36,728 nucleotides of DNA from an uncultured Lachnoclostridium sp. (GTDB lineage: Bacteria > Bacillota > Clostridia > Lachnospirales > Lachnospiraceae), in NCBI GenBank assembly GCA_947565985.1, contig CANOID010000014.1, forward strand, positions 1 through 36,728, written 5' to 3'. The translations under genes were made by a program, and so were the position numbers. Below, in pieces: positions 5,217 to 22,576 of this stretch. Numbering within the stretch: position 1 is the stretch's first letter; each line of letters opens with the position of its first letter. The notes below the pieces were generated by a model that saw nothing but the letters and a program-made list of their open reading frames with translations, did not search any database and was not told where the DNA came from.

Positions 5217-6158
5217 TTATTCTAATACCAGACGAACCCCACCATATATTCCAGCATTGTTACTTAACTCTGCTGGCTTAAAATCCGTACTACAAACAGC
5301 GTGGAAAGCATATTCTGTATAGTGTTTCTGGATGCAGTCCAATAAAATATTGCCAGCTTTTGCCATTCCGCCTCCAATGACAAAAACTTCTGGATTTACT
5401 GTACAAGAAACACAGGCTAGAGCTTTTCCAAGTATAATTCCTACTTCATCTATCATTTCAAGTGCTACCTTGTCATCCTCTTTGGCAGCATCAAAAATAT
5501 CTTTTGCAGTAAAAGTATCAATATTTTTTAAAATGCTTTCTGCCTGCTCATGTTCATTAAAATATCGTTTTGTCATATTCACAATTCCTGTAGCAGAAGC
5601 ATACTGTTCAAGACATCCTTTTTTGCCGCAACCACATGTTTCAGGCTCATTATCTTTCATTGGCATATGCCCAATTTCCCCAGCAGCGCCATTTGTACCT
5701 GATAAGATATGCTCATTAATAATAATCCCACCGCCTACTCCAGTTCCAAGTGTCACCATCACGAGATTTTTATAGCCTCTACCACCACCCTGCCACATCT
5801 CGCCAAGTGCCGCTACATTGGCATCATTTCCTGCTCTTACTTTCAATCCAGTCAATGTTGACAATTCTTGTTCAACATTAAAAATGCCCCATCCAAGATT
5901 TACACATTTAAAAACAGTACCATCTTCTCCAATAGGTCCTGGAACTCCCATTCCAATTCCTTCAACATCCAAGCTTGAAATAGACTTTTCTTTTATTTTT
6001 TTATCTATCTCGTCTGCTATATCTCTAAGTATATATTTGCCATTTTCTTGTGTTCTTGTAGATATCTCCCAAGTGTCAAGAAGTGTTCCATCTGTTTCAA
6101 AAAATCCCATTTTCACAGTTGTTCCGCCTATATCTACACCAAAAGCATATTTTTTCAT
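5217..6158 (-). CDS. glcK: ROK-family glucokinase
   Basis: This 313-residue kinase should phosphorylate glucose with ATP in the cytoplasm. The N-terminal phosphate-binding motif is 'DIGGTT' (9-14). The catalytic aspartate lies in 'GNDAN' (Asp112), the sugar-binding Glu-x-x-His in 'GEIGH' (161-163), and the ROK zinc site in 'CGCGKKGCLEQ' (Cys175, 177, 182 with His163). Length is normal for the family. An AAAGAGGA RBS precedes the ATG. It is the last gene of the glycoside locus, 30 bases after the GH3 gene, where it would capture glucose released by the enzymes upstream. Confidence 0.93.
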   Translation of the reverse strand: MKKYAFGVDIGGTTVKMGFFETDGTLLDTWEISTRTQENGKYILRDIADEIDKKIKEKSISSLDVEGIGMGVPGPIGEDGTVFKCVNLGWGIFNVEQELSTLTGLKVRAGNDANVAALGEMWQGGGRGYKNLVMVTLGTGVGGGIIINEHILSGTNGAAGEIGHMPMKDNEPETCGCGKKGCLEQYASATGIVNMTKRYFNEHEQAESILKNIDTFTAKDIFDAAKEDDKVALEMIDEVGIILGKALACVSCTVNPEVFVIGGGMAKAGNILLDCIQKHYTEYAFHAVCSTDFKPAELSNNAGIYGGVRLVLE

Positions 6159-6188: not shown

Positions 6189-8387
6189 TTAAAAGTTAAT
6201 AATTATTTCTTGCTCCAGACATTCTTTAGAATTGGTGCCGATGTAAATAATAAACTTACCATCTTCCAGATGGTAAACAGCATTATCATCATAAAATCCC
6301 ATCTGATTTTTTGGAAGTGTAATAGTTACTTTCCTTTCTTCACCCGCTTTTAGGTATTCCTTAGAAAAGCCTTTAAGTTCTTTTACAGGGCGTACAATTG
6401 ATGCACTAACATCATGCATATAGAGCTGCACAACTTCTGAGCCATCTCTTTTTCCAGTATTTTTTAATACCACAGACACATTAAGGCAGTCATCTTTTTC
6501 CTTAATATCCATGTCCAAATATTCAAAACTTGTATAGCTTAATCCATATCCAAATGGATAAAGAGGCTCTAATGGTGCATCTAGGTAACGTGATGTAAAT
6601 TTACTTTTGCTTCCCGGTCGTCCAGTCCTAGGACTGTTATAGTACATAGGACACTGTCCTGTCATAGCAGGAAAAGTACACGTTAATTTACCACTTGGAT
6701 TGACATCGCCAAATAAAACATTTGCTACTGCATTTCCCATCTGTATGCCAAGATGCCAGCACTCAAGTATAGCTGGTATATGCTTATCTTCCCATGACAG
6801 TGCAAGTGGACGGCCATTCATCAGCACTGCAACCACTGGCTTGCCACTATCTACAAGCATTTTTAAAAGCTCCCTCTGTCTGCCAGGAAGTGTAATATCA
6901 GCTCTTGAAGATGCTTCACCAGACATACTGACAAGTTCCCCTACAACTGCAACAATAATGTCACCTTCTGAAATTGCCGCTTTAACTTCTGCTTCATTTA
7001 TGCTGTCCTCTGGTCCACAACATGGATAATAGGATACATCAGCACCTTTATTTTTAAGTCCTTGATAAATTGTAACGCAGTCACTAGCTCTTCCACTAAG
7101 AGACCATGAACCAAGTACCTCCTCTGGCATATCTGCCAGTGCCCCTGTAAGGCTGATTTTGGCAGTCTTTTTAAGTGGTAAGACATCGTCATTTTTAAGT
7201 AGTACAATTGACTTTTCTGCTACTTCTAGTGCCTGAGAAAGATGTTCTTCTGGCAGTTGGTCATAGCGGTGCATTTGTTCATCAGTTACATAAGGTTTTT
7301 CAAACAGTCCTAGACGCATTTTAATGCTAAGAATCCTGTGTACTGCTTCATCTATATACGAAATATCCAGCTTGCCAGATTCTACTGCTTCTTTAAGTTC
7401 ATTATGATATATCCATGTTCCCATGTCCATATCCATACCTGCACTAACGGCTTTTATAGCAGCATCTTTTTCATCTTCGGCAATGCCATGTACTATACAT
7501 TCTCTTATTGCATTGGCATCACTTACTACAAAGCCATCAAATCCATAACTTTCCTTTAAAATGTTTCTTAGGGTATAGCTGTTCACTGTACATGGCACAC
7601 CATTTAAGTCATTAAAAGCTGCCATAACTGTAGCAGCTCCTTCTGAAACTGCTGCCTTAAATGGCGAAAGATATATGTTATGTAACATAGATTTTGCCAT
7701 ACCTGTAGTATTGTAATCTCTGCCGCTTTCGCACGCACCATATGCAACATAGTGTTTCAGACACGCCGCTACATAATTCTCTGGGTTTTCATCGTCATTT
7801 TGTAGTCCACGTACACGTGCTTTAGCAAATACAGATGCCAGATATGGGTCTTCACCCGGTCCCTCAGAAATACGACCCCAACGTGCATCCCTTGAAATAT
7901 CTATCATAGGTGCAAAATGCCATGCAATGCCGCTTGCCCTTGATTCTTTTGCAGCAATACGTCCTGTCTTTTCAAATAGCTCCGGCTCAAATGTGCCAGC
8001 TTCTGCAAGTGCAATTGGAAACACTGTACGAAAACCATGTATAACGTCAAAGCCAATAATAAGTGGAATACCAAGTCGTGTTTCTTCAACTGCAATTTTT
8101 TGCAGTTTATTTATCACTTTTGGGTCTGATACAAGGACAGAACCCAAGCCGCCTGCTCGGTTTACATCATCGTGAAAATCCTGCGTAGCACCTTCCATCA
8201 TATGCTCAAATTCTTCTTTGCTAATGCGCCCATCTGTCATCATTTCAATTAATTCTTCAAATGAGACATCAAAACCACCAACAATAGATGGGGAAATCTG
8301 GTTCATCTGTCCAATTTTTTCTTCAAGTGTCATTTTTTCTAATAATTCATCTATTTTAGCTTTTTGTTTATCTGTTAATTCTTTCAT
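6189..8387 (-). CDS. GH3 beta-glycosidase (beta-glucosidase/xylosidase, BglX-like)
   Basis: A 732-residue cytoplasmic enzyme (no signal peptide) that removes terminal beta-linked sugars, probably glucose or xylose, from oligosaccharides or aryl glycosides. Order: TIM-barrel domain (to about 340) with 'KHYVAYGACESGRDYN' and the nucleophile in 'GFDGFVVSDANAI' (Asp290); alpha/beta sandwich domain with 'MSGEASSRADITLPGRQ', likely carrying the acid/base glutamate; and a C-terminal Fn3-like domain ending with '...YIGTNSKECLEQEI'. The usual tryptophan after the nucleophile (SDW) is alanine here. The start at 8387 has GGAGA 6 bases upstream; the in-frame ATG at 8397-8399 immediately follows the GH43 stop codon. 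Substrate cannot be settled from sequence alone. Confidence 0.92.
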   Translation of the reverse strand: MKELTDKQKAKIDELLEKMTLEEKIGQMNQISPSIVGGFDVSFEELIEMMTDGRISKEEFEHMMEGATQDFHDDVNRAGGLGSVLVSDPKVINKLQKIAVEETRLGIPLIIGFDVIHGFRTVFPIALAEAGTFEPELFEKTGRIAAKESRASGIAWHFAPMIDISRDARWGRISEGPGEDPYLASVFAKARVRGLQNDDENPENYVAACLKHYVAYGACESGRDYNTTGMAKSMLHNIYLSPFKAAVSEGAATVMAAFNDLNGVPCTVNSYTLRNILKESYGFDGFVVSDANAIRECIVHGIAEDEKDAAIKAVSAGMDMDMGTWIYHNELKEAVESGKLDISYIDEAVHRILSIKMRLGLFEKPYVTDEQMHRYDQLPEEHLSQALEVAEKSIVLLKNDDVLPLKKTAKISLTGALADMPEEVLGSWSLSGRASDCVTIYQGLKNKGADVSYYPCCGPEDSINEAEVKAAISEGDIIVAVVGELVSMSGEASSRADITLPGRQRELLKMLVDSGKPVVAVLMNGRPLALSWEDKHIPAILECWHLGIQMGNAVANVLFGDVNPSGKLTCTFPAMTGQCPMYYNSPRTGRPGSKSKFTSRYLDAPLEPLYPFGYGLSYTSFEYLDMDIKEKDDCLNVSVVLKNTGKRDGSEVVQLYMHDVSASIVRPVKELKGFSKEYLKAGEERKVTITLPKNQMGFYDDNAVYHLEDGKFIIYIGTNSKECLEQEIIINF

Positions 8388-8399
8388 ATTTTTCTCCAT

Positions 8400-9992
8400 T
8401 TATTTCTCTATATAGCGGAACCAGTCAAATAAAGCCCAGTTATTAGATTTATTTCCATTAGAAGTAGCAAACATACCAATCATTGTACCTGTCATAGGTC
8501 CTAACTCTTCTGGATTAATACGTCTTCCGTCTACATGACATAATAAAAAATCATTACAATAAACTGTGAAATCCTGACCATTTGCTGCAATGCGTAGCGT
8601 AACTGTGTCAGGTTCATATGAATATTTGAATAAAATATGCTCTACTGTATTGTCTTTAAATGACAAAAGAAATGGTGGACCATCCATACTACATTCTGCA
8701 AGAATTACACATATTTCCTTAGCTCTTTTTTCTACACGAAGCTGATGGTTACACTGCTGTAATACTACAAGACCTGCTGCTTCCTCATCTTTAGCATCAA
8801 ACTGAAGTTTGCAGCAGTGTAACCATCAGCTTCGTGTAGAAAAAAGAGCTAAGGAAATATGTGTAATTCTTGCAGAATGTAGTATGGTAATGTCAATTCT
8901 CTTTAATGGGCTTGCTATTTTATGTGGCAATGCCTTTAATTTTAACATACTATCTTCAAGCTTCCAGAAATCTTGATATGGTGTTCCCCAGAATACCCAT
9001 TTCATATCTAGTTCATCGCTGTCAAAATCATCAATATCTTGTTGTATTTCAGATATAGGAGAATATGGCAGGTTAGGGAATGGATATGTCAATTCTATTT
9101 TTCCAGTGTTTGGTGAAAATACTGGCCACTCATCTTCCCATTCTACAGGAACTAGATACGTTTCACGACCCATATTTTTATGAAAACCACCTACAAGGCG
9201 TGAAGCCAGTAAAACTGCATACCAGTCACCATTTTGTGTCTGTACTATGTCTGCATGTCCGGGATTGCCGATTGGATAATTCTTACCAAGATGGCGATGT
9301 GTCATTATAGGGTTATGCGGGCAGCTAATATATGTTCCTAAAGGCTCTTTACTTCGTCCAATTACGACACTGTGATAGTGTTCTGTGCCACCTTCAGCAG
9401 TTATTAAGTAATACCAGTCTCCTATATGGTATATATGAGGTGCCTCACTTGAAGGTGCACCTCTTAATGCACTTCTCCACAATACCTTTTTCTCACATAA
9501 AAGTTCGCCATTATCTGGGTCAAACTCTGCTCCCCATATGCCCTGTTCTGTACTATCTGCAAAATCAAACTGTCCTGTACTTGTCACATAACATTTTCCG
9601 TTATTGTCAAAGAAAATAGATGCGTCAATCCCCGGCACATCTGGCAGTGGCAGTGGCTTATTCCAAGGGCCAGTAGGGTCTTTTGTGGTTATAATAAAGT
9701 TTCCACTGTCTGCAAAATTGCAGCAAATAAGATAAAATGTACCATTATTGTAACGCAGTGTTGGAGCCATCATACCACCTGCAAAAAGATTCGCATCTAA
9801 ATATAGCCATTCTTTTTTATCAAGCACATGTCCAAGCTGTTTCCAGTGGACTAGGTCTTTACTGTGAAATATCGGAAGTGCCGGAAAGATTTCAAAACTT
9901 GAAGTAACAAGATAGTAGTCATCATTAACACGACAGATTGTCGGGTCAGGATAAAATCCTGGCAAAATAGGATTGTTAAAATATTTCTGCAT
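8400..9992 (-). pseudogene. GH43 beta-xylosidase/arabinofuranosidase, split by an inverted duplication
   Basis: The frame from 9992 encodes the five-bladed propeller of GH43. The base Asp16 is in 'FYPDPTI', the middle Asp123 in 'GIDASI', and the acid Glu183 in 'SSEAPH'. At about codon 369 it enters the 76-bp inverted copy and stops at 8826-8828. The true C-terminal beta-sandwich ('KLQFDAKDEEAAGLVVLQQ' to '...ALFDWFRYIEK') continues in the same frame down to 8400. The span is exactly 531 codons, a normal length for this group, so a single stop inside the inverted copy is the visible lesion. A stable protein with an intact active site but no C-terminal domain could still be made. The TIM-barrel-free, signal-free architecture suggests a cytoplasmic enzyme. 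RBS AAGGAGGGG precedes the start. Confidence 0.85.
8684..8887. repeat. Perfect 76-bp inverted repeat with 52-bp spacer in GH43
   Basis: Bases 8684-8759 are the exact reverse complement of 8812-8887. The spacer is 8760-8811. The left arm translates in the GH43 frame as family-like sequence ('LQQCNHQLRVEK...ECSMDGP'), so it is the original copy. The right arm translates as nonsense with a stop, so it is the inverted copy that replaced original sequence. No transposase, terminal repeat or target duplication is associated with it. Confidence 0.97.
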
Positions 9993-10254: not shown

Positions 10255-12900
10255 TTACATTTTCTTTATAAACAGTTTCACTTCTCCAAACATACCAGTC
10301 GCATCTACAGGTTCATACATAAAATCAAATGGCGGATGTGGATAGTTCATCTGGTCTCTTGCTGGAGTTGTAGTCACTTCTATTTCAATAGTATTTTTGC
10401 CTGATTTAAAAAAGCTACCTATTGACACTTGATAAGGCGGTGTAATTCGTATACCTGCTTCTCTTTCATTTATTGTAACCTTTAAAATTTCATATACATT
10501 TTCTGCTTTCAAATAAACTTCTTTTGAAATTTCTTCAAACTCTATTTCCTTTGTATAACGAATAATGCCAGAAAATGCAGGATAATCATCAGAAATTGGC
10601 TTGAGAGTGTCTACTCTTATACTTTCTGAAAACTGTGGGTAGTCCTTAGCCTTTACCATAGACACATCCCAACCATCAGAAATATCTATAACTTCACATT
10701 CACTGCCAATTTGCTGTTCAAATGGACGATGTACTGTGTTACATTGTCTGCATTTTTTACCAACTAACACACAGCACTCTGCAGGTTCTAACTGTAGCCG
10801 TACCTTTACATAACCATCAAATACCTCACACTCTGCTGTTTCGTAACAGTCTTTCCATGCATCATAATATAATGCCTCTTCCTGTAACGGCAGAAGTACT
10901 ATATCTGAATAAGCTATATTAGCAGATTCATTCAGAAAGACAAAAATATCCTCATCTTTTTTATAATGATAAAAACTAAGTTCTTTAAATTTGCTATCTG
11001 TTGCAATTTCATAAAATCCTTTTATGCGAAGAGCATTTACAAGGTTTTCAAGTGCAATCACCTCGCATTTGTCTATGGCATTTTCCTGTTTTGCTTTATC
11101 ACTCGCATTTATTATCTGATTTGGAAGTCCATCTATAAAAATAACTGGAAAGTTACCTGCATTGCTGATAAAATCTGCCAGTCCATTTGGAATACCCCTT
11201 GTATAAGGAATAATAAGTGCACGCATGACTACTCCATTTATTATCAATTTCCCATCTGTCAAACTGCCATTGTATGTTTCCATATTTTCTAACATATCAA
11301 TACTTAGGATTTCAAAATCAATCTGATTTTCTGTAAGTGTCCTGCAAACTTTCTGCATAGGCATATTTCCGCCAATCCAGTCGGCTTCTCCATCATACAA
11401 CACAGCCACAGAAGCTACATGGATTCCGCCGCTTAGCATTTGGCACATCCTGTCTGCGTATTTCATAAGCATGGCAAAGTATGGAAATTCTGGATTATTC
11501 CCTCTCGCATAATAATGGGGAGGACAGTCAGGGTCTGGATAATCTGCCATAGAAAAAGCGTGTGGAACTAGATAATTTACGCCTTTTACTAAAAGATGGT
11601 CTAAAACATATTTCATATCTCGTACACCAAAATTCCATCCATATGCACCAAATAATTCACACATTGTACGCCCCTTTTTCTTTGGGTCAAGATGACCGCA
11701 AGAAGCACCCATTTTCCCTAAAACATAGTGGTAAAACTCTCCATCTCCGCCACTTTCACCCATTCCAAGTCGTCCTTGTGTAGCACCTCCATATATGACC
11801 TGACTTCCGATACAGTCTATACCTGCCATATGTTGACCAGACATTGCCCTGAAATAATGAACAGCACCCATTCCAAAGCGACTGTGTATGCCATTATCTT
11901 CTACTATGTGTCCTATATATTCCACACCATGTTCAGTACACCAGTTGCCCAGCACATCACTAAAATTTTTCTTATACAGTTTGGAAACAAAATCCATATA
12001 ATCGTAGCGTATCTGCATTCCTATGTTCTGTTCTTCAGTTTCTTCAAACAGGAAAGGCAGATATTCTATATAGTTATTCCCATACTTTTCTTCCATCATC
12101 TTTTGTAGTTCATTACTCCATGGCAGAGGCATTCTCTTTTTTCCAAGCTTTGTATCATAACACATTTCTGATACATTCCCAAACTGTGGCTCATCAGAGA
12201 AAAATCCAGCTATTGTCTTTCCAAATTCTTTGGAAAATTGTTGATAATGTGGCTCATATACTGCTTCAATCTGTGTGTGGGCGGACTCTTTGTCAATTAA
12301 ATTTATGTAAGTTTCATCACCACCATCAGTTCTTGTCTTATAAATAACGTGTACACGCCATGCACCGCTTGGAAGTTTGAAAGTAACTTTTGTGCCATCA
12401 TAATATGGTGTCAAGTTTATTACTTCTTCTTTTAATTTCATTCCTTCTGCACATTTTACAGCTAAAATTGCCAAAACACGATTATTTTTACGCTCCTCTT
12501 CATTTACAGGTTTGCCAATTTCCCAATATCCAATTGAGGGCTTTAACATTCTGCTAACATCAAGAGTTACTAATTTTGAACTGCCATAAATATCTGCTTT
12601 TGAAGACTGAATATACAACTTTTTTCTTTCTGGATATTTTTCTGCAATCAAGCCATTTGCATATCCAGTTGGAAAATGCTTGTCATCTAATATCCACACT
12701 TGCATACTGCGTCTTTTTGCTTCTTCAATGACAACTCCTAAGTCATTCCACCATGTTTCGCTACAAAATCCATCATGTGGGCGTGCTTCTACGCAAACTG
12801 CATGAATACCACATTCTGCAATTTTTTCCATTTCCTCACGGATAATACTTTCTTCTTCTCCTCTCATCCACAAAAATGGAAATATGTGATTATCTGCCAT
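10255..12900 (-). CDS. Large glycoside hydrolase, GH106-like (possible alpha-L-rhamnosidase)
   Basis: An 881-residue protein without a signal peptide. The N-terminal part reads as a TIM-barrel catalytic region ('PFLWMRGEEESIIREEM', 'HDGFCSETWWNDLG', 'WILDDKHFPTGYANG'), with a conserved acidic motif 'GFFSDEPQFG' at 232-241 and later 'GHIVEDNGIHSR'. The C-terminal 130 residues form a GH2-type sugar-binding jelly roll ('VYLKAENVYEILKVTINERE', '...KSGKNTIEIEV'). This layout resembles the GH106/alpha-L-rhamnosidase-related proteins common in Lachnospiraceae. The family and the rhamnose specificity are my recollection of these motifs, not a computed match. An AAGGAGG RBS is 6 bases before the ATG. 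It follows the broken transporter and would trim decorated glycosides imported by the GPH carrier. Confidence 0.6.
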   Translation of the reverse strand: MADNHIFPFLWMRGEEESIIREEMEKIAECGIHAVCVEARPHDGFCSETWWNDLGVVIEEAKRRSMQVWILDDKHFPTGYANGLIAEKYPERKKLYIQSSKADIYGSSKLVTLDVSRMLKPSIGYWEIGKPVNEEERKNNRVLAILAVKCAEGMKLKEEVINLTPYYDGTKVTFKLPSGAWRVHVIYKTRTDGGDETYINLIDKESAHTQIEAVYEPHYQQFSKEFGKTIAGFFSDEPQFGNVSEMCYDTKLGKKRMPLPWSNELQKMMEEKYGNNYIEYLPFLFEETEEQNIGMQIRYDYMDFVSKLYKKNFSDVLGNWCTEHGVEYIGHIVEDNGIHSRFGMGAVHYFRAMSGQHMAGIDCIGSQVIYGGATQGRLGMGESGGDGEFYHYVLGKMGASCGHLDPKKKGRTMCELFGAYGWNFGVRDMKYVLDHLLVKGVNYLVPHAFSMADYPDPDCPPHYYARGNNPEFPYFAMLMKYADRMCQMLSGGIHVASVAVLYDGEADWIGGNMPMQKVCRTLTENQIDFEILSIDMLENMETYNGSLTDGKLIINGVVMRALIIPYTRGIPNGLADFISNAGNFPVIFIDGLPNQIINASDKAKQENAIDKCEVIALENLVNALRIKGFYEIATDSKFKELSFYHYKKDEDIFVFLNESANIAYSDIVLLPLQEEALYYDAWKDCYETAECEVFDGYVKVRLQLEPAECCVLVGKKCRQCNTVHRPFEQQIGSECEVIDISDGWDVSMVKAKDYPQFSESIRVDTLKPISDDYPAFSGIIRYTKEIEFEEISKEVYLKAENVYEILKVTINEREAGIRITPPYQVSIGSFFKSGKNTIEIEVTTTPARDQMNYPHPPFDFMYEPVDATGMFGEVKLFIKKM

Positions 12901-12931: not shown

Positions 12932-14047
12932 TTACTGGCTTAATTCTCCAGAAGCTATCTTAGCAGCAATCAACTCCTCATTTTCCTTGCCTTTAGCATT
13001 TGTCATATGTACCATAATAAAGAAAACGGCACTTAATGCAAAAAATATACATGGTCCAAAATTAATAACTGCATTCATTCTTGTAAGTACTTCTGGAGCC
13101 ATCTCTGTATTTGCAATAAAACCAACTGCACCAAGAATCACGATACCAACAGAACCACCAATTGCATTTCCAAGTTTTGTAGAAAATGAAATACAAGAAT
13201 AAATAACACCATCTGCACGGATTCCTGTCCTGAGCCAATTGTCGTCAATGATTTCTGCTCCAAGACCATAAGACACCAGACCACCAAAATTTGTTGAACC
13301 ATAGATAAGACCTACTACTGCGATTGCCATTGCTGACATTTTTGCCTGACCCATAAAGAAAAAGGCTGTACAGCAAATAATCTGGCAGATACAGGTGATA
13401 ACACCACACCATTTTTTATCAATATTATTAAGTAAAAGTGGCGCATAGAAATTAACTACAAGCATACCAATTGTCATTGCAGTTCCAAATGATGCAATTG
13501 CCATTGCGTCACCAAGAATATAAATAAAATAACATGCCATGATGCCAAGACGTCCAAAAATACCCGTCAAGAAACAAAACATCGCCAATACCAGAAACCT
13601 TGCATTGTGGTCTTTAAATGTCATTTTAAAAGAAGTAAATAGATTTTTAACTACACTCTCTTTTTCTCCTGTTTTCTTTGCACCACCTCCAATTACTTCC
13701 TTTGTGGTTACAAAACATATTATAAAACAAGGCAGACAAATAATTGAAAAAATAAGTGCTGCCATAAAATATCCTTTACCTGAAGAAGTAGAACCATTGC
13801 CAAAGTAAAGAATAATTGGCATAGTAATCGCATTAATAATTACACCAGCAATTTGTCCAATCGCACCACGATATGCATTTAAGGACACACGTTCTGTATT
13901 AATAGATGTCATGGAATTTGCCAAACACCCAACAGAAATATTTGCTGCAGTATAAGCCATACCACAGCCTATATAAGTAAATCCACACCATATAATTTTC
14001 CATACACCAGGTATATCAAGGTTTAAAAATGCCAGACAATTAAAATT
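12932..14047 (-). pseudogene. Second GPH-family sugar transporter, N-terminus deleted
   Basis: This is the remainder of a glycoside-pentoside-hexuronide:cation symporter. The frame opens directly after the stop of the intact transporter, in the same reading frame, and starts with 'NFNCLAFLN', then 'YIGCGMAYTAANIS'. These align with 'FNILTFTVF' and 'YIGTGMAYTACSIA' from residue 92 of the neighbour. About 91 residues are therefore missing: two membrane helices, part of the third and the conserved 'DAVNDPMMGNIAD' loop. The first ATG (13960) has no RBS. The remaining 371 codons contain no stop, so the loss is probably recent. A functional carrier is unlikely. Confidence 0.75.
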
Positions 14048-15424
14048 TTATTTGTTATCAGAGTCCCATGCGTGTCTTCCAGCATCCAGTTCTTCACGAA
14101 TTTCTGCCACGCGTGCAGGTGTGAGCTTATAAAAGAACAGTGGAATTATTGATATGCCAGCGATTATCGCAGGTACAATATTTACTACTAAGTTAATTCC
14201 AGCTTTAGCTGCGTCCGTCTGTTCTGCATTTGCCACGTAACCAGCAGCAGATAAAAGCAGTACTCCGGCAGAGCCACATATTGCGGTAGAAATTTTAACA
14301 CCAAAGCTAAGCATTGAAGCTGCCACACCTTCCTGACGGCTTCCAAGTTTCCAATCGCCGTACTCAATCGAATCACCTACCATGCCATAGCAGATAGAAG
14401 AAGCAGAATTACAAAGTCCGCAGATAAATGATACACCCATAAGATAAACTAGGTTGCTTGTCGGATTAATATACATTAATACAAAGCCAACTATCATTAT
14501 AACATTTAGTATTATCATATAATTGCGTTTTCCAAATTTGTTAGTGCCCCATGGTACAAAAAGAGTGCCAATAAGCTGTGCAACTGTCATTACTGTAAAT
14601 ATATAGGCAACTGCCTGATATGAACCTGCTACATAAATTACATAGTACACTAAAAGTCCCATTCTTCCTGTTACACAGATTGTACCACCGATTGTTGCAA
14701 GCACTACCATAAGAAGCTGGTCGTTTCTTACAAGCTCTTTTAAGCTCTTAAAGAATCCCATTTTTTCAGACTTGCTTTCTGTATGTAACTGCTCTGTGTA
14801 TGTTTCCTTACATCCTAATGCACAGAGCCAGAATACTGGAATTATACATATAGATAAAACTACAGTTGTCCAGAAATAACCTTTAGCAGTTGCTACATCA
14901 CTTTTGCCAAAAAAGAGAATCATTGGCATTGCAAATGCTGACATAAAAATACCAATTACGGAAGAACCAACACCACGTGCAGTAGCAAGGTTCATACGCA
15001 CTTGTGAATCAATCGCAACTACATTCTGTAATGCCTGATAAGCGATTGAACACGCAGTATATGCCATACCTGTGCCTATATAAAATATCAGACACAAAAC
15101 AACTTTTAATGCACCTTGTACTGGAAATACAGTAAATGTTAAAATATTAAATACTGCGAGAACTGGAGGTGCAAACATCAGATATGGTCTAAAACGTCCC
15201 CAACGTGTATTTGTATTGTCTGCAATATTTCCCATCATTGGGTCATTGACTGCGTCCCATATACGGGCAATCAGCATAATTGCTGAAATAGCCGCCGCAG
15301 TTAACCCTACAATATCTGTATAAAATATTGTCAAATAATTATTAATCATATACCAGCTCATCTGGCATCCGACTTCACCAAGTGCATAGCTTACGGCAAG
15401 CTTTGGATTTGTCTTTTCCTTCAT
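14048..15424 (-). CDS. GPH-family sugar/glycoside:cation symporter
   Basis: A 458-residue inner-membrane transporter with about twelve hydrophobic helices. The family motif 'IWDAVNDPMMGNIADNT' followed by 'TRWGRFRPYL' (56-82) marks it as a glycoside-pentoside-hexuronide symporter (MelB/XylP/UidB type), which imports glycosides with H+ or Na+. GGGAGGAGG lies 5 bases before the ATG. It follows the second oxidoreductase by 29 bases in the catabolic operon and is the obvious uptake route for the glycosides processed by the neighbours. The substrate is not predictable from the sequence. Confidence 0.9.
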   Translation of the reverse strand: MKEKTNPKLAVSYALGEVGCQMSWYMINNYLTIFYTDIVGLTAAAISAIMLIARIWDAVNDPMMGNIADNTNTRWGRFRPYLMFAPPVLAVFNILTFTVFPVQGALKVVLCLIFYIGTGMAYTACSIAYQALQNVVAIDSQVRMNLATARGVGSSVIGIFMSAFAMPMILFFGKSDVATAKGYFWTTVVLSICIIPVFWLCALGCKETYTEQLHTESKSEKMGFFKSLKELVRNDQLLMVVLATIGGTICVTGRMGLLVYYVIYVAGSYQAVAYIFTVMTVAQLIGTLFVPWGTNKFGKRNYMIILNVIMIVGFVLMYINPTSNLVYLMGVSFICGLCNSASSICYGMVGDSIEYGDWKLGSRQEGVAASMLSFGVKISTAICGSAGVLLLSAAGYVANAEQTDAAKAGINLVVNIVPAIIAGISIIPLFFYKLTPARVAEIREELDAGRHAWDSDNK

Positions 15425-15453: not shown

Positions 15454-16524
15454 TTATTCAAAATTTATAGACTTTCCTGTACGAGCAGACTCACGGACTG
15501 CTTCCATTAAAGCCAGAACTCTTCTTGTTTCTGGAATTTTCACAAGAAACTCTTCTTCACCATAATATGCCTTTTTATAGTTTTCAAAATAATCTTCGTG
15601 TTTAGTTGACACCGCTGGCAGTTTTTCTGTAATTATTGTACCTTCTGCTGGTGGTCCAAATGAACGTGTAGGACCTGCTGCCGTCATTGTACGTTTTCCT
15701 GATACATTGGTAAGCAGATGAGATGTACGCACAATTTTACCTTCTGGTTCAAAACCATCTACATATGCACAGCCTTTGTTGCCACAAATCATCCAGTGTC
15801 GCTCAAACCACTTGTCATGCATCTTATCAGTAAGATAATAAGTGCCAAGCTCCACTTCTGCAGCAATGCCATTGTCAAAACGCATCAATATCTTAAAGTA
15901 ATCGTCTACTTCAAAGTTAATTACATTTCTTACATCTGCAAAAATACTTTTAATTTTGCTTTTAGGCATCATCCAAAGTATCTGGTCGAGAAGATGTACA
16001 CCCCAGTCAAAAAGCATACCGCCGCCTTCGCTTATATACACGTGCCAGTCGTGCATATTACCATTAAAGCCATACAGGCTGTTTTTAATTGAATAGACAT
16101 CACCAAGGCTTTTTTGGTCATAGACTTCTTTTATAGTGCGAAAATCTGGGTCTAATCTTCTCTGGTGGTGTACTGTAAATTTAACACCACACTTCTTAGT
16201 TTCTTTTATCATATCATCCAGCTCTGTAAGGTTCATTGCTACAGGTTTTTCGCAGATAATATCTTTTCCTGCACGTGCTGCCTGTATTACAATATCATGG
16301 TGCTGATTGTTATTTGCAGCAACTAAAACTACCTGAACCTCTGGGTCATTTATCAGCTCATCATTAGATGAATATCGCTTAAGACCTTCTTTTACATCTT
16401 TTAACTGTTCAGGGTCTCTGTCAGAAATTCCTACAACACGTATTCCTTCCATCTGGGTGAGCATCTTTTCATGTTCATGGCCCATAAAGCCATGACCGAT
16501 AATACCAATTCTAATGTCTTCCAT
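15454..16524 (-). CDS. Gfo/Idh/MocA-family NAD(P)-dependent oxidoreductase (second copy)
   Basis: A 356-residue enzyme with an N-terminal Rossmann fold ('GIIGHGFMGHEH'), the 'EKPVAMNLTEL' motif that ends the nucleotide domain, and a C-terminal alpha/beta domain. The latter carries 'GGGMLFDWGVHLLDQILWMM', where Asp and His match the catalytic D-x-x-x-H of the family. Such enzymes oxidise sugar hydroxyls or reduce keto-sugars. It is clearly different in sequence from the oxidoreductase at 18869-19984, so the two may act on different glycosides, or one may oxidise and the other reduce the 3-keto-sugar. The start at 16524 has GGAGG 8 bases upstream; an ATG at 16539 lacks an RBS. Confidence 0.85.
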   Translation of the reverse strand: MEDIRIGIIGHGFMGHEHEKMLTQMEGIRVVGISDRDPEQLKDVKEGLKRYSSNDELINDPEVQVVLVAANNNQHHDIVIQAARAGKDIICEKPVAMNLTELDDMIKETKKCGVKFTVHHQRRLDPDFRTIKEVYDQKSLGDVYSIKNSLYGFNGNMHDWHVYISEGGGMLFDWGVHLLDQILWMMPKSKIKSIFADVRNVINFEVDDYFKILMRFDNGIAAEVELGTYYLTDKMHDKWFERHWMICGNKGCAYVDGFEPEGKIVRTSHLLTNVSGKRTMTAAGPTRSFGPPAEGTIITEKLPAVSTKHEDYFENYKKAYYGEEEFLVKIPETRRVLALMEAVRESARTGKSINFE

Positions 16525-16546
16525 AAATTCTGCCTCCATTTAATTA

Positions 16547-16563
16547 AAGGCGGCGACCGCCTT
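16547..16563. other. Small GC-rich hairpin in the operon
   Basis: AAGGCGG at 16547-16553 pairs with CCGCCTT at 16557-16563 around a 3-base loop, in the gap between the epimerase-like gene and the second oxidoreductase. It is strikingly GC-rich for this AT-rich region. It may slow decay or cause partial termination to set the level of downstream genes. Confidence 0.5.
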
Positions 16564-16573
16564 GCCCTATATC

Positions 16574-17488
16574 TTAAATTACAAAGTTTCTAAGATACCT
16601 TGCACTTAAAAGCACTGCTTTCTTTGCATTTTCTAAACTCTTTTCAAATGCTTTATCCTCTACTTCAATACAGGTACATCCTTCATATCCTATATCTGAA
16701 AGTGCGGAAACGTATTTGCCCCAGTCCACATCACCAAGCCCTGGAAGCTTTGGAGTCATATATTCAAGCGGTGTTGCCATAACCCCTACATCTGCAAGCT
16801 TATCTTTATATACTTTGATATCCTTATAATGTACATGAAAAATCTTGTCTTTAAATTCATATAATGGCTTAATATAATCAATCTGCTGCCATACAAAATG
16901 CGATGGGTCATAGTTGATTCCAAAGTTATCACTGTCAATAACCTTAAAGACTTTTCTCCAGTTTGAAGGAGATGTCATAATATTTTGTCCACCAGGCCAC
17001 TCATCTTCTGTAAACAACATAGGACAATTTTCTATTGCAATCTTTACGCCCTTTTCTTCTGCATGTTTAACTAGAGGAGGCCACACTTCTTTAACAAGCT
17101 CTAAATTCTGTGTTACAGTCTTTGATGGATCACGTCCCACAAATGTTGTAATCATGTTTACGCCAAGCATTGCCGATGCATCAATCATTTTGTGAAGGTG
17201 TTCTACATAGCCTTTTCTTTTTTCAAGGTCTGGGTCCATTGTATTTGGATAATATCCAAGCGAAGAAATCTCTACATTCTTTTTACTGCAATATTCCTTG
17301 ATATAAGCAGCTTTTTCTTCTGTGAGATTTGCAACATCAATATGGCTTACACCTGCATATCTTCTCTTTGCACCGCCCTGTGGCCAACAAGCCACTTCAA
17401 GGCATTCAAGTCCATTTTCCAATGCAAAATCTACTACTTCTTCAAATGTCATTCCATCACAAATTGCTGTAAGAAGACCTAATTTCAT
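16574..17488 (-). CDS. TIM-barrel sugar isomerase/epimerase-like protein (AP-endonuclease-2 fold)
   Basis: A 304-residue cytoplasmic xylose-isomerase-like barrel. Metal ligands of the fold can be seen: Glu153 in 'IAIENCP', Asp194 and His197 in 'NYDPSHF', His218/His220 in 'FHVHYKD', Glu275 in 'CIEVED'. The family includes epimerases, isomerases, inosose dehydratases, and lyases or eliminases acting on 3-keto-sugars. It is not closely similar to the C-deglycosidase alpha subunit encoded just upstream. Paired with the next oxidoreductase gene it could isomerise or cleave a keto-sugar formed in the pathway. RBS AAAGGGG precedes the ATG by about 10 bases. The exact reaction is unknown. Confidence 0.8.
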   Translation of the reverse strand: MKLGLLTAICDGMTFEEVVDFALENGLECLEVACWPQGGAKRRYAGVSHIDVANLTEEKAAYIKEYCSKKNVEISSLGYYPNTMDPDLEKRKGYVEHLHKMIDASAMLGVNMITTFVGRDPSKTVTQNLELVKEVWPPLVKHAEEKGVKIAIENCPMLFTEDEWPGGQNIMTSPSNWRKVFKVIDSDNFGINYDPSHFVWQQIDYIKPLYEFKDKIFHVHYKDIKVYKDKLADVGVMATPLEYMTPKLPGLGDVDWGKYVSALSDIGYEGCTCIEVEDKAFEKSLENAKKAVLLSARYLRNFVI

Positions 17489-17509
17489 TTACATACATCC
17501 CCTTTCTAA

Positions 17510-17950
17510 CTATACAATAAGCAGTTTTCTCTTATTTACATGATGTCCAAACTCTGGCATAAATACAAAACTTTCTGCGTCAGGGTCTAAGTGTTCTTGA
17601 ATAACAGGTGGCATATAAGAAGATGTAAAGCAGAATCCATATACTAACTCATGGAAACCTTGTGAAAGTCCTCCCATCTTTTTCACTTTAAGCACTGCTG
17701 GCTCTGTTACAGCCCAGTGAGTTTTAAAATCTTCTTTCATTTCCTCATAAGTGTAGTCTTCCCCTTTTATATTCCAGATAATATCTCCTTTTTCAAACTT
17801 CTCTCCATCTACATAGAGAGTTCCTGGTCTTAACTGGCTTAAAAAAACACCACGGTAATAAGGAAGCCTGACTTTAAACTGGAAACCTGTAATTTCTCCG
17901 TTTTCCTTTGTATTTCTAAATCCTACTGACTGAATTACTTCTCTTTCCAT
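17510..17950 (-). CDS. C-glycoside deglycosidase beta subunit (CGDB/DUF6379 type)
   Basis: A 146-residue protein matching the small subunit of C-glycoside deglycosidases (DfgB of Eubacterium cellulosolvens and the Dgp small subunit of strain PUE are the described relatives). The pattern seen is 'VGFRN', 'GEITGFQFKVRLPYYRGVFL', 'LYVDGEKFEKGDIIWNIKGE', 'HWAVTEPAVLKVKKMGGLSQ' and 'GFHELVYGF'. In the known enzymes this beta-sandwich subunit packs on the TIM-barrel alpha subunit and is needed for activity on 3-keto C-glycosides. The start at 17950 has AAGGAGG 8 bases upstream; the in-frame GTG/ATG at 17974 overlaps the alpha gene. The alpha stop is 13 bases away, so the two are co-translated. Confidence 0.8.
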   Translation of the reverse strand: MEREVIQSVGFRNTKENGEITGFQFKVRLPYYRGVFLSQLRPGTLYVDGEKFEKGDIIWNIKGEDYTYEEMKEDFKTHWAVTEPAVLKVKKMGGLSQGFHELVYGFCFTSSYMPPVIQEHLDPDAESFVFMPEFGHHVNKRKLLIV

Positions 17951-17963
17951 TTTATTTACCTCC

Positions 17964-18836
17964 TTAATCACCAATGTAATTCTTTAACATAATATGCTGC
18001 TTGCGAAGTGTCTGGCCTACCTCATATCCTAGGTCATACTTATCTGCTCCTTCATATTCACTTAAAAGATAGCCATCCCAGTTATTATCCTTAAATATCT
18101 TGATAATTTCCTTATAAGGTATAGTAGTCTCCTCAAATGTATCACTCATATTAATAAACTTTGCATGGCAGCAGTAAATATATGGCAGCAGTGGAATTAA
18201 ATCTTCTGGAGCGTTTGGTGTGTAATTAGGGTCTACGTATTCTCCCTCTGCAAATTCAGTTCGGAACACACTAAAATCTATATTAAGTCCAAAGTTCTTT
18301 GTGCCGGTTTCTTTAATAAATGATACAAAATCATTTACCATATCACCTTTTAAATTCGTTGGTGTATGTATTTCAGGACACATCTGTATTCCAAGCTCTT
18401 CAGCTAGAGGAAGTGCCATTTTAATTATCTCTCTCCAGTTTTTAACTGGTTCAAGCTTATCTGTAATAACTGGCATTTTTGTCCTCATAACTGTAAAACC
18501 AAGTCTGTGTGCAAGGCGGATATCCCTTGCGAGCATTTCATAAGATTCCTCTGTAGTAAGGTCACGACTGCCAAGGACATGAGAGTCAATCCAGTTGCCA
18601 TACTCAACTGGTACAATCTCATATTTGTCACATAAACGGAACCATTTCTCTACCCATTCATCCGTAGGATATGGATAATTCTCTATATGTGTATTTGCCA
18701 GAATCTCAATCCCATGTGCTCCCATATCATGTACATCTTCAAAGCACTCTTCAAGTGACTTTGTAAGTCCAAACTCTGCGGAATAGCTGTACAGTGCTAC
18801 TCCACGTTTAGGTCCTTTCCAATCATATTTATACAT
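17964..18836 (-). CDS. C-glycoside deglycosidase alpha subunit (TIM barrel, metal-dependent)
   Basis: A 290-residue xylose-isomerase-like barrel. It resembles the large subunit of C-glycoside deglycosidases (DfgA type), which cleave the carbon-carbon bond between a 3-keto-glucose and an aromatic aglycone such as a flavone. Seen: '[20 protein letters not shown]' near the start, '[18 protein letters not shown]', and a Mn-type ligand set Glu155 ('CPEIHTP', with His157 nearby), Asp187 ('LNIDFSV'), His224 ('CCHAKF') and Glu260 ('LLSEYEG'). The beta subunit gene follows directly, which strongly supports the call over a generic sugar epimerase. O-glycoside or other keto-sugar substrates remain possible. 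Confidence 0.78.
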
Positions 18837-18868
18837 AGTCCGTTTCCTCCATAATCACATATCATATA

Positions 18869-19984
18869 TTAGAATTTTATTTCTTTACCTTCTGCTGCCG
18901 ATTTATAAATATTGTCTAATATCTTTGTAACAACAAATGCCTGCTCTGGTTTTACTAAAGGCTCTTTATCATTTAAAATTGCCTCAAGCCACTGTTTACA
19001 CTCAACTTCTTCTGGCTTGTCAGAACCACCTTCAAAAAATGCAATCGTTCCACCTGCTGACAGTGTTTCCTCTGTAAGTCTTCCATGGCTTGTTTTATTA
19101 ATAATCAGGTCATACTCGCCTTCTGCCTTGCTCATACCGCCTATAATTTCAGCACCAGCCTTAGTACCACACAGTGTAGTTGCAGCTTCTCTTGACTCTT
19201 TCATATTGATTGCCCATGCAGCTTCTAAGAAAATCGTAGCACCATTCTTCATCTTTACAAAACCAAATGCAGAATCTTCTACCTCAAAAGTCTTAGGGTC
19301 CCATGCTCCAAACATATTTCCTTTTGTAGCTTCTTCAAGGTGTCCTAATTTCTCATATACAGAACCTGTAACGCTTTCTACTTCGTAGTTATCCATCATC
19401 CAAAGTGTAATATCAAGTGCGTGTGTTCCTATATCAATTAATGGACCGCCGCCCTGTTTAGCCTTATCTGGAAATACACCCCATGTAGGAACTGCTCTTC
19501 TGCGGATAGCATGTGCCTTTGCAAAGTAAATCTCACCTAAATCTCCTGCTGTACAAGCTTCATGAAGCATCTGTGTATCATTGCGGAAACGATTCTGATA
19601 ACCAATCGTAAACTTCTTACCAGATTTTTTCCATGCTTCCATCATCTTCTGTGCATCTTCTGTAGTAGCTGCCATTGGCTTTTCACACATTACGTGTTTA
19701 CCAGCTTCAAAAGCTGCTACTGTAATAGGACAGTGTGCTACGTTAGGTGTACATACATGAACAACATCAATCTCTGTATCATTCATTACTTCCCTGTAAT
19801 CTTCACACACCTTTGCATCTGCTGTGCCATATTCCTTTGCCCCTTTTTCAGCTCTTTCATGTATAATGTCACAAAAAGCCACGATTTCGCACTTGTCCGC
19901 CTGTGATTTTAAAGTTGGAAAGTGTTTCTGATTTGCAATTCCTCCACATCCGATTACTGCTACCTGTAATTTACCGTTTTTCAT
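18869..19984 (-). CDS. Gfo/Idh/MocA oxidoreductase, probable glycoside C3-dehydrogenase
   Basis: A 371-residue NAD(P)-dependent enzyme: Rossmann motif 'VAVIGCGGIANQKH', 'GKHVMCEKPMAATTEDAQK', 'IGYQNRF', and the catalytic block 'GGGPLIDIGTHALDITLWMM' with Asp and His. In characterised C-deglycosylation systems a Gfo/Idh/MocA enzyme (DgpA of strain PUE) first oxidises the sugar C3-OH so that the alpha/beta complex can break the C-C bond, and can later reduce 3-keto-glucose back to glucose. Position directly before the alpha/beta genes fits that job. The start is 19984, with GAGGAGG 9 bases upstream; an upstream TTG at 20002 lies within the RBS itself and is rejected. First gene of the catabolic operon after the regulator. 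Confidence 0.83.
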   Translation of the reverse strand: MKNGKLQVAVIGCGGIANQKHFPTLKSQADKCEIVAFCDIIHERAEKGAKEYGTADAKVCEDYREVMNDTEIDVVHVCTPNVAHCPITVAAFEAGKHVMCEKPMAATTEDAQKMMEAWKKSGKKFTIGYQNRFRNDTQMLHEACTAGDLGEIYFAKAHAIRRRAVPTWGVFPDKAKQGGGPLIDIGTHALDITLWMMDNYEVESVTGSVYEKLGHLEEATKGNMFGAWDPKTFEVEDSAFGFVKMKNGATIFLEAAWAINMKESREAATTLCGTKAGAEIIGGMSKAEGEYDLIINKTSHGRLTEETLSAGGTIAFFEGGSDKPEEVECKQWLEAILNDKEPLVKPEQAFVVTKILDNIYKSAAEGKEIKF

Positions 19985-20051
19985 ATCAAAATTCCTCCTC
20001 AATATTTTATTTTTTATGTTCCTGTAGGATTATCTCCCTTTGATGTTTATT

Positions 20052-20126: not shown

Positions 20127-20168
20127 TAAAAAAAATAGATGCAACAAATGTAATACATCTGTTGCATC
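20127..20168 (-). terminator. Intrinsic terminator of the AraC-GH39 gene
   Basis: On the minus strand GATGCAACA pairs with TGTTGCATC (9 bp, extended inward by a G-T pair and ATGTA/TACAT) and is followed by a run of eight T's. It separates the regulator transcript from the catabolic operon. Confidence 0.85.
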
Positions 20169-20197
20169 CCTTTTCTTCTTATTATTTTTCTCTGACT

Positions 20198-22576
20198 TTA
20201 CTTTCTATATATGTGCAATAATACAATCTCATGTGCATCAAGTTGTACATTAAATTCAATTTTATTATCTTTAACTGTAGTATGCTCCATACTCATACGT
20301 GGATAACAGGCACGTCTTATATATTTTACATCTTTGCTGTCCAAGTTTCCATCATACTGAAAGTTTTTCCATTCACTTAATAAATTTCCTTCTTTAGGGT
20401 TTACTGAACGCTTTTTAATAACATAATTACCTGTTTCTACACCATTAAGCACAATATCTAATCCCATATTGTCATTATCTTTAAATAAATCGTCTATTTT
20501 TTCAGGTTCATTGACATCTTCATCATTAGTGTAATAGCTGTAATTATACTGTTTATAATTAAAACACAGTATATAGTAACTTTTTTTCTCTGTGCTTGTA
20601 ATAATACAGTTGCTTCCTCTCGTAATACAGTACTTTCCAAGACTGTTCATAAACGCCAGTGCATGGTAAGCAGGTTTACAAATACTGTCTTTAGTAATAA
20701 GACCATTGCCGCCATTAGCAATTCCTCTTGCGTCAAAATAATTGCTTACCCAATCTGAAGCCATCCATATACAAATCATATCTAAAGAGTTCCACAGCTC
20801 TGACAGAGTTCTTATAATATAAGCTGCCCTAAAGCAACTGTCATTAAGATAGTTTCTACTAGAAACAGAACTGTTCCACTCTGATATATAAACTTTGCTT
20901 TCTATGCCTTGTCTTGATAAAATAGCATGAATTTCTTGAAGCCTTTCTTTTTCTATCCCATACTCTGTGCTTCTCATATACTTCTTTTTGCCGTCTCTTT
21001 CAACATCTACATATGGAAACAGTATAAATGATACAAAGTCTGGTATACACTGTGCCTCTTTACACTGATCAAAAAACTTCTCTATAAACTCAGTTTTTAC
21101 ACCTGCAATTCCCATCGGCCCGCCTACTTCTGCTGACGGGGCAGTTTCTTTAACTGTCTTATATAAATGCTTGAATGCATTAATATAGCTGTAGTCTTTG
21201 TCTTCATAACAGTGAATATCATGTACTACATCATATCCAAGTTCAAAAATCCACTTGCCAACTTCCGCTTCGCCATACCTTTGTACAACATGGTGTATAA
21301 AATCAGAAACCATTTCTTCCCATACTTCTCTTGACTGAAACTTTATGCCTTCATCTTCAAAATAAAGAACAACATTTTCAGTTCGTACAGCCGTATTTGG
21401 ACGCACACTAATGTCTAAAAATGGAATAATCTGGTGCGAAACCAGAAAATCTAAAACTATATCTACTTTGTCATAGCTGTAATTTCCTATATGAATGCCA
21501 TCCGTAAGCATCATCTTTGTAGAAAAAACATTCCAAAGTCTGGCGTATCTAAACCCCAGATTCTCAACAAGATATATAAGGTGATACTGGATATTTGCAA
21601 GCATAAGGGTATCCATAGAACCTATATTTATAGCCTTATTCCATGTTTTATCATAAATCTTACTCTCTGAAACATCAGCCATAACCACGACATCTGCTGA
21701 TACTTGCTTTTCAGGATAAATGTTTTGTATCTTTTTCAGTTCTTCAAAAAGCTGTCTGTCTTGTTCTTCCTTTTTTTGATTAGTTTCTCTTTCTATTTTT
21801 CTACAGTCGCTGGGGGACATTCCATAGCGTTCCTTAAATACTCGGTTAAACACTGATAGATTAGAAAAACCACTGTCTGCTGCAATTCTTGTAATATTGT
21901 TATCAGTGTACATAAGTTCTTTAAACGCATATTGAAGCCTCATCTGATTAATGTATTCTGCGAAATAAATGCCTGTCTGCTTCTTAAAAAATCTCGACAG
22001 TGTAGAGCTTGACATATACATATTTTCCGCTAATTCAGACAAGCTTGCATTATATCTAAAATTTTGTTCAATATATTTAAAAATCTGACACATCTTTGCA
22101 TTTGTACTATTTATCTTAGTATTATCTAAAGATTCTTCAATAAGAAAATTTTCTATCAGACAGTCTAAAAGTTTATAAAAAAGCCCTTGCAGCAAACACT
22201 GTGTTTTATGTGGCATAATCACGTGTTGATAAACAATTTCTCTGAATATCTCTCTTAATTTTCTATAAGAATGTATATCATCGCTTGCACTATTACAATA
22301 GAAAGTGTAGTCATCTCTGTGAAGAATATCAGACAACGCCTTGTAAGAATAACACACTATGCACATAATAGCTTCTCTATCTGCATGGATTCTATGTAAA
22401 AGACCAGCACTAAATACGATTATATCATTTTCTTTTAAAGTATACTCTGTATCATTAATTGTAGCCTGCATATGCCCCTTAATTAAAAACACAGCTTCTG
22501 TCTCTGGCTGGTAATGCGGTTTTTCTTGTATTTCTCCCTTTACAATCTTGATTTCTATTCCAGCATAAATATCCAT
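20198..22576 (-). CDS. AraC-family regulator fused to a GH39-like domain
   Basis: A 792-residue soluble protein. A cupin-like sensing domain (about 1-100: 'VFLIKGHMQATINDTEYTL') is followed by a linker and a double HTH AraC domain (about 165-262, 'SLSELAENMYMSSSTLSRFF' and 'RVFKERYGMSPSDCRK'). The C-terminal 500 residues resemble the GH39 beta-xylosidase barrel plus beta-sandwich. The usual acid/base motif W-N-E-P is replaced at 447-450 by G-Y-D-V after 'WIFEL', while the nucleophile-type 'ISEWNSS' (Glu566) is kept. This points to a domain that binds rather than hydrolyses a glycoside, acting as a second ligand sensor. RBS GAGAGGAT precedes the ATG. It probably controls the downstream operon, and possibly its own gene. 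Confidence 0.88.
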   Translation of the reverse strand: MDIYAGIEIKIVKGEIQEKPHYQPETEAVFLIKGHMQATINDTEYTLKENDIIVFSAGLLHRIHADREAIMCIVCYSYKALSDILHRDDYTFYCNSASDDIHSYRKLREIFREIVYQHVIMPHKTQCLLQGLFYKLLDCLIENFLIEESLDNTKINSTNAKMCQIFKYIEQNFRYNASLSELAENMYMSSSTLSRFFKKQTGIYFAEYINQMRLQYAFKELMYTDNNITRIAADSGFSNLSVFNRVFKERYGMSPSDCRKIERETNQKKEEQDRQLFEELKKIQNIYPEKQVSADVVVMADVSESKIYDKTWNKAINIGSMDTLMLANIQYHLIYLVENLGFRYARLWNVFSTKMMLTDGIHIGNYSYDKVDIVLDFLVSHQIIPFLDISVRPNTAVRTENVVLYFEDEGIKFQSREVWEEMVSDFIHHVVQRYGEAEVGKWIFELGYDVVHDIHCYEDKDYSYINAFKHLYKTVKETAPSAEVGGPMGIAGVKTEFIEKFFDQCKEAQCIPDFVSFILFPYVDVERDGKKKYMRSTEYGIEKERLQEIHAILSRQGIESKVYISEWNSSVSSRNYLNDSCFRAAYIIRTLSELWNSLDMICIWMASDWVSNYFDARGIANGGNGLITKDSICKPAYHALAFMNSLGKYCITRGSNCIITSTEKKSYYILCFNYKQYNYSYYTNDEDVNEPEKIDDLFKDNDNMGLDIVLNGVETGNYVIKKRSVNPKEGNLLSEWKNFQYDGNLDSKDVKYIRRACYPRMSMEHTTVKDNKIEFNVQLDAHEIVLLHIYRK

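Follow-up and report, generated by a model that had tools for sequence, protein, structure and literature searches.

The stretch of DNA considered here, called the window in what follows, comprises 36,728 nucleotides of an uncultured Lachnoclostridium sp. and is one contig (C14; CANOID010000014.1) of a 2.76 Mb genome, which is 87% complete and present in 185 contigs. Five genes follow one another closely on its minus strand. Judged from its sequence, this core is very likely a C-glycoside deglycosylation operon and a near relative of the known dfg systems. In the order of transcription, an AraC-type regulator with a GH39 domain and a hairpin are followed by a DgpA-type oxidoreductase, the alpha and beta subunits of the cleaving enzyme, a second TIM barrel and a DfgE-type oxidoreductase. 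Further along the same strand lie two GPH symporters, the second of them shortened, then a GH106-like protein, a GH43 and a GH3 enzyme and a ROK glucokinase. The five core genes are given below.

18869..20002, minus strand: DgpA-type Gfo/Idh/MocA oxidoreductase, likely for glycoside 3-oxidation (550 bits to the DgpA structure 7xr9; EKP, DxGxHxxD)
17964..18836, minus strand: C-glycoside deglycosidase alpha subunit, DfgA type (594 bits to 7bvs_A, 86% identity; motifs)
17510..17950, minus strand: C-glycoside deglycosidase beta subunit, DfgB type (CGDB; 129.7 bits to PF19906; 256 bits and 76% identity to DfgB, 7bvs_B)
16574..17488, minus strand: second TIM barrel, candidate 2-hydroxy-3-keto-glucal hydratase (profile matches to 2zds, 8ro4 and IolE 3cny; ENCP)
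15454..16539, minus strand: DfgE / DgpA2-type Gfo/Idh/MocA oxidoreductase (416 bits to 9m37; synteny in loci L012 and L060)

The initial annotation had placed five tandem open reading frames at these positions, and they are indeed found there, separated as called by 32 (DgpA-type gene to alpha gene), 13, 21 and 34 bp. The starts of both oxidoreductases probably need to be amended. That of the DgpA-type gene is probably the ATG at 19984, behind a Shine-Dalgarno-like GAGGAGG, rather than the TTG at 20002; that of the second oxidoreductase is probably the ATG at 16524, behind a similar GGAGG, rather than 16539, so that the last core gap becomes 49 bp. For comparison, 61 loci were found by their relatedness to DfgA, and genome counts refer to 51 genomes, i.e., that of the window and 50 from those loci. 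Of these loci, the closest that carries a name is Lachnoclostridium sp. UBA7122 (L002), in which six proteins are 94-98% identical and the gene order is that of the window up to the end of the L002 contig.

The small protein was thought to be of the CGDB type, and the Pfam profile agrees (5.4e-38; cut-off 27.6 bits), so that the refuting outcome named in the initial annotation, a small protein that fails to match the profile, does not occur. It is the sole CGDB match in its own genome, and none was found in the 14 control genomes. Among solved structures, the best relatives of the alpha and beta subunits are DfgA and DfgB of Eubacterium cellulosolvens, respectively. The CGDB and DfgA scores exclude a chance match of both subunits. 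The metal ligands, the base His and a supporting Glu of C-glycoside deglycosidase (CGD) are named, in the numbering of AgCGD2, in the available part of PMC8563793, and these positions were transferred through an alignment with DgpC and an ungapped comparison with DfgA. The alpha subunit keeps all five metal ligands (1His/2Glu/1Asp/1Lys), namely E155, D187, H224, K226 and E260, along with the catalytic H157 and E262; the full metal set of the initial annotation is thus borne out. The pair bears the marks of the CGD family, both in its CGDB small subunit and in its metal and catalytic set, and C-C cleavage is predicted from them. It is closely related to an enzyme of solved structure.

The same part of PMC8563793 reports that the E. 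cellulosolvens enzyme cleaves C6-glycosides and not C8-glycosides, and that Leu128 of the alpha and Pro115 of the beta subunit clash with C8-linked orientin. Both residues are retained in the window's subunits, which points to mangiferin or to flavones with a C6-linked glucose, isoorientin and isovitexin among them, as the predicted substrates.

Both oxidoreductases contain EKP and DxGxHxxD, which we take to be the catalytic motifs of these enzymes; in the first of them they stand at residues 107 and 190, counted from the TTG. The structure nearest to the second oxidoreductase, 9m37, has an entry title that names a DgpA2 and isoorientin complex, and no publication on this entry was found in the open-licence literature. 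In loci L012 and L060, the genes for A and B are followed by a 279-residue barrel, a 426-residue oxidoreductase and then a relative of the window's second oxidoreductase. The dfg cluster comprises five genes as published, and in Catenibacillus scindens dfgC and dfgD are described as adjacent (PMC11170127 and PMC8398226, in the parts available). As the order in L012 and L060 matches dfgABCDE, the second oxidoreductase is assigned by synteny to the DfgE type and hence to the published five-gene set. The DfgC, DfgD and DfgE assignments rest on synteny and these papers and not on the E. cellulosolvens cluster itself; no 100% match to E. cellulosolvens DfgA was found in 397 genomes of the family and 19 of another genus. 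In a quick tree, the DfgA of L012 groups with that of E. cellulosolvens at a support of 83, which is not a strong value. The initial annotation had set the barrel and oxidoreductase at the end of the operon outside the described gene set. This does not hold for the oxidoreductase; it does for the barrel, which is not of the DfgC type.

Two other assignments were considered and given up. The pair at 15454-17488 was taken for DfgC and DfgD, which was rejected because of the order in L012 and L060 and because the genes for the 279-residue barrel and the 426-residue oxidoreductase adjoin in C. scindens. Similarly, a 348-residue hydratase-like barrel and a 382-residue oxidoreductase of C. scindens (L132, L133) were dropped as its DfgCD, as the 279/426 pair fits instead. 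The 348/382 pair occurs at L132:7886-10102 and L133:7315-9562 in what appear to be duplicates, by their equal match scores and leading residues.

The second TIM barrel, of 304 residues, is another kind of protein than the syntenic DfgC-type barrel, as far as sequence comparison can tell. When a profile of 16 members was compared with structures, it matched 2zds with 84.2 bits, the hydratase 8ro4 with 37.8 bits (E 1.4e-8) and IolE 3cny with 30.2 bits; the best match, 2zds, has no known function. A stretch DPSHFVxQxxD is common to the barrel, 8ro4 and 2zds. ENCP at 153-156 is invariant in all 16 aligned sequences, and in 16/16 a Cys replaces the His of the eliminases. This His corresponds to H143 of PuCGE and H134 of AtOGE, and H134A abolishes the activity of AtOGE (PMC10628242, available part). 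The hydratase 8ro4 also carries His, at its ExH position, where the barrel has ENC; this speaks against a simple transfer of function. Excerpts of PMC10628242 name 8BVK as the AtOGE structure. It is not matched by the second-barrel profile at E 0.001, whereas the profile of the 279-residue DfgC type (L012) matches it with 102 bits and two other isomerase-like entries with 103 bits. The DfgC-type match agrees with the O-deglycosylation reported for DfgCD. Between the profile of the second barrel and that of the DfgC type no alignment was obtained (probability 1.6%; the alignments are shallow), although both proteins are AP_endonuc_2 members and both match an IolE model weakly (about 52 bits). 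In the window's genome, which is 87% complete, there is no DfgC-type match at 1e-15 and no DfgD-type match at 1e-40. No paper on the second-barrel type was found in the open-licence literature; subscription papers may describe one.

Of the 397 genomes of the family, 8, including the window's, match DfgA at 1e-60, seven of them with at least 71% identity, and record titles name the rumen or a ruminant animal for 16 of the 61 loci. Of the 51 genomes, 26 have the second barrel, 19 the DgpA type and 31 the DfgC type. Each of the 19 genomes with a DgpA type also has the barrel, and in 13 the two lie less than 5 kb apart; seven genomes have the barrel without a DgpA type. DgpA and DfgC types occur together in five genomes and are both absent from six, and in none of the 61 loci do they stand together. 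Their mutual exclusion has a Fisher p of 0.0002 over the 51 genomes, or 6e-6 if two matches at 45-46% identity are left out of the DfgC count. On the quick DfgA tree, the DgpA trait needs only six changes, with just two independent pairs on well-supported branches, and a sign test is not significant; the exclusion is therefore taken as linked to lineage and not as proven. The pattern of barrel, DgpA and DfgC follows lineages and is no more than suggestive. The five-gene combination with the second barrel is found in 5/61 loci (L002, L003, L039, L042, L049), and L002 and L049 keep the window's order. A cluster of Faecalicatena orotica (L105:6587-13944) holds two different CGD pairs, a DgpA type, a DfgE type and the second barrel.

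The window's operon can be set beside three described systems. With dfgABCDE of E. cellulosolvens (EuCGD is DfgAB, 7bvs) it shares closely related subunits with conserved catalytic residues and the presence of DfgA, DfgB and, by synteny, DfgE types; it differs in that DfgC- and DfgD-type matches are missing from the genome and a DgpA-type oxidoreductase and another barrel are present instead. As in dgpABC of strain PUE (PuCGD is DgpBC), a DgpA-type gene lies beside the alpha and beta genes. The alpha subunit, however, is far closer to DfgA (594 bits) than to DgpC (131 bits), and the beta subunit to DfgB (256 bits) than to DgpB (61 bits). The Agrobacterium OGE/HYD and levoglucosan lgdA-B1-B2-C operons likewise combine two oxidoreductases with an eliminase and a further isomerase-like barrel in a scheme of oxidation, elimination, hydration and reduction; in contrast to them, the eliminase of the window is of the two-subunit C-glycoside type, and its second barrel is distant from HYD.

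The genes around the core are listed below.

20198..22576, minus strand: AraC-type regulator with cupin, HTH and C-terminal GH39 domains (Pfam HTH_18, Cupin_2, GH39; matches to beta-xylosidases of the PDB over 307-789)
20137..20169, minus strand: terminator-like hairpin of 15 pairs and a T tract, between regulator and operon (hairpin scan)
14048..15424, minus strand: GPH-type sugar symporter, likely for uptake (TIGR00792, 361 bits)
12932..13960, minus strand: second GPH symporter, N-terminal part missing (the MFS_2 profile match starts at position 109; relatives align from residue 100)
10255..12900, minus strand: GH106-like (rhamnosidase-like) protein (Pfam 20.3 of 29 bits, below cut-off; NCBIfam rhamnosidase 85.6 bits, cut-off 1300)
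8826..9992, minus strand: GH43 glycosidase with an in-frame stop within its C-terminal domain (PF04616, 278.7 bits)
6189..8399, minus strand: GH3 beta-glucosidase, BglX type (NF011678, 711 bits, cut-off 666)
5217..6158, minus strand: ROK glucokinase (TIGR00744, 310 bits, cut-off 260)

The context of a glycoside operon, as first proposed, is thus seen on both sides of the core. For its assessment, 40 control stretches, which are contig starts and not random draws, were taken from 20 of the DfgA genomes; 29 of them, drawn from 16 genomes, are at least 18 kb long and are set against the 32 DfgA loci (of 61) of such length. A relative of the regulator occurs in 30/61 loci, and in 21/32 long loci as against 0/29 controls. 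Its GH39 domain reads GYD at the position where, we assume, GH39 enzymes carry NEP, and it may therefore sense a sugar rather than act as an enzyme. The hairpin scan found 12 sites of this kind overall, with 8.9 expected. Relatives of the GPH symporter are found in 15/32 long loci and 0/29 controls. The second symporter shares only 29% identity with the adjacent one; about 100 residues are missing from its N terminus, and it is probably a non-functional remnant. For the glycosidases, the comparison gives 9/32 against 1/29 for GH43 (p 0.014), 7/32 against 1/29 for GH3 (p 0.055) and 3/32 against 0/29 for the GH106-like protein (p 0.24), whose relatives in L006 and L007 are 56-57% identical; the second barrel stands at 5/32 against 0/29 (p 0.054). 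The GH43 frame stops after 388 codons and continues to about 8412, where it is similar to relatives of 560 and 568 residues; the interruption is either real decay or a sequence error. Upstream of the regulator by 56 bp, on the same strand, lies a CobD-like aminotransferase (22633-23727; 284.7 bits, just short of the cut-off of 290.55). A surface-type protein of 1752 residues with M60 (enhancin-like) peptidase, fn3 and F5/8C domains is found at 25210-30468, followed by an fn3-type protein of 443 residues.

From the observed gene order, homology, residues and co-occurrence, we infer each reaction of the following scheme in this organism. The glycoside would be imported by the GPH symporter. The DgpA type, the DfgE type or both would oxidise C3 of the C-linked glucose, as is known for close relatives. 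In the metal-dependent alpha-beta complex, His157 would take the C2 proton and the aryl-C bond would be broken, by the chemistry of related enzymes, giving the aglycone and 2-hydroxy-3-keto-glucal. The second barrel might add water to the latter to form 3-keto-glucose, which would regain a hydride from the enzyme-bound NADH, leaving glucose and a ready enzyme, as published work on DgpA with 3-oxo-glucose suggests. The whole would amount to a redox-neutral hydrolysis via elimination. The ROK glucokinase may then trap the glucose, and GH3, GH43 and the GH106-like protein might perhaps trim O-linked sugars beforehand; that the operon handles O-decorated C-glycosides is a guess. For DgpA and D3dgpA, oxidation is reported when a 3-oxo-sugar is present (PMC11239390, in the part available); if the operon encodes a hydratase, this acceptor would arise from the elimination product and the loop would be closed. 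Oxidation, elimination, hydration and reduction have been shown for levoglucosan, the hydration partly by inference (excerpts of PMC7676230). For the operons of Agrobacterium and strain PUE, the same four steps are a published proposal, in which the hydratase is called preliminary.

The first part of this scheme, C3 oxidation followed by cleavage in a two-subunit complex, was already suggested in the initial annotation and, with one or both Gfo/Idh/MocA enzymes as the oxidising part, is highly probable, given the identity of both subunits to a crystallised and characterised pair and the conserved residues. It is quite improbable that the chemistry serves mainly O-glycosides, whose 3-keto forms would break down whether the complex acts on them or not, C-glycosides being side substrates. 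CGE does eliminate 3-keto-O-glucosides (PMC10628242, available part), O-glycosides break down once D3dgpA has oxidised them (PMC11239390, likewise), and the GH43 neighbours, along with the borderline GH3, point to O-glycosides. Yet a dedicated CGDB subunit should be unneeded for them, and the pair proven on C6-glycosides is 86% and 76% identical. For the second barrel, hydration of the released enolone to 3-keto-glucose has about an even chance. It is rather unlikely to be an isomerase or epimerase acting on 3-keto-glucose or glucose, as weak model matches to 5-keto-L-gluconate epimerase and L-ribulose-5-phosphate 3-epimerase, matches to the tagatose 3-epimerase and IolI structures and the ENC in place of ExH might suggest; DPSHFVxQxxD, common to 8ro4 and 2zds, and its company with the DgpA type, which was assayed with 3-oxo-glucose, speak against this reading. 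A role of the barrel as an O-glycoside eliminase equivalent to DfgC, with DgpA type and barrel in place of DfgCD, is unlikely. The exclusion of DgpA and DfgC types and the like scores to the IolE model agree with it, but 8BVK is matched by the DfgC-type profile only, the two profiles cannot be aligned, the His essential in AtOGE is missing, five genomes hold both types and phylogeny may explain the exclusion.

Several points weigh against hydration and the wider scheme. The resemblance of the barrel to the hydratase is distant (37.8 bits, by profile); the barrel lacks the ExH His of that enzyme and is closer to 2zds. The DgpA type is absent from 32/51 DfgA genomes and is hence not needed for DfgAB as such, and the sample is biased since the relatives were found by DfgA similarity. 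The GH39 domain of the regulator resembles beta-xylosidases, so the inducer may be another sugar, and ROK is not enriched near DfgA (2/32 against 0/29; p 0.49).

Flavone C-glycosides resist ordinary glycosidases, and to our knowledge few organisms with proven C-glycoside cleavage are known; this gene set is a clear candidate for the cleavage of C6-flavones. Tentatively, and with some doubt, the second barrel may represent a separate hydratase family, with ENCP for ExH, that accompanies the DgpA type wherever the latter occurs among the genomes compared. With DfgAB and DfgE, this barrel would then form a redox-neutral C-glycoside hydrolase that is complete in itself and needs no turnover of free NAD, and one of two exchangeable back ends in Lachnospiraceae, the other being DfgC with DfgD, on the same C-C-cleaving enzyme. 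The barrel bears on how DgpA might obtain its 3-oxo-glucose acceptor and is a possible missing part for a test-tube reaction without added 3-oxo-sugar.

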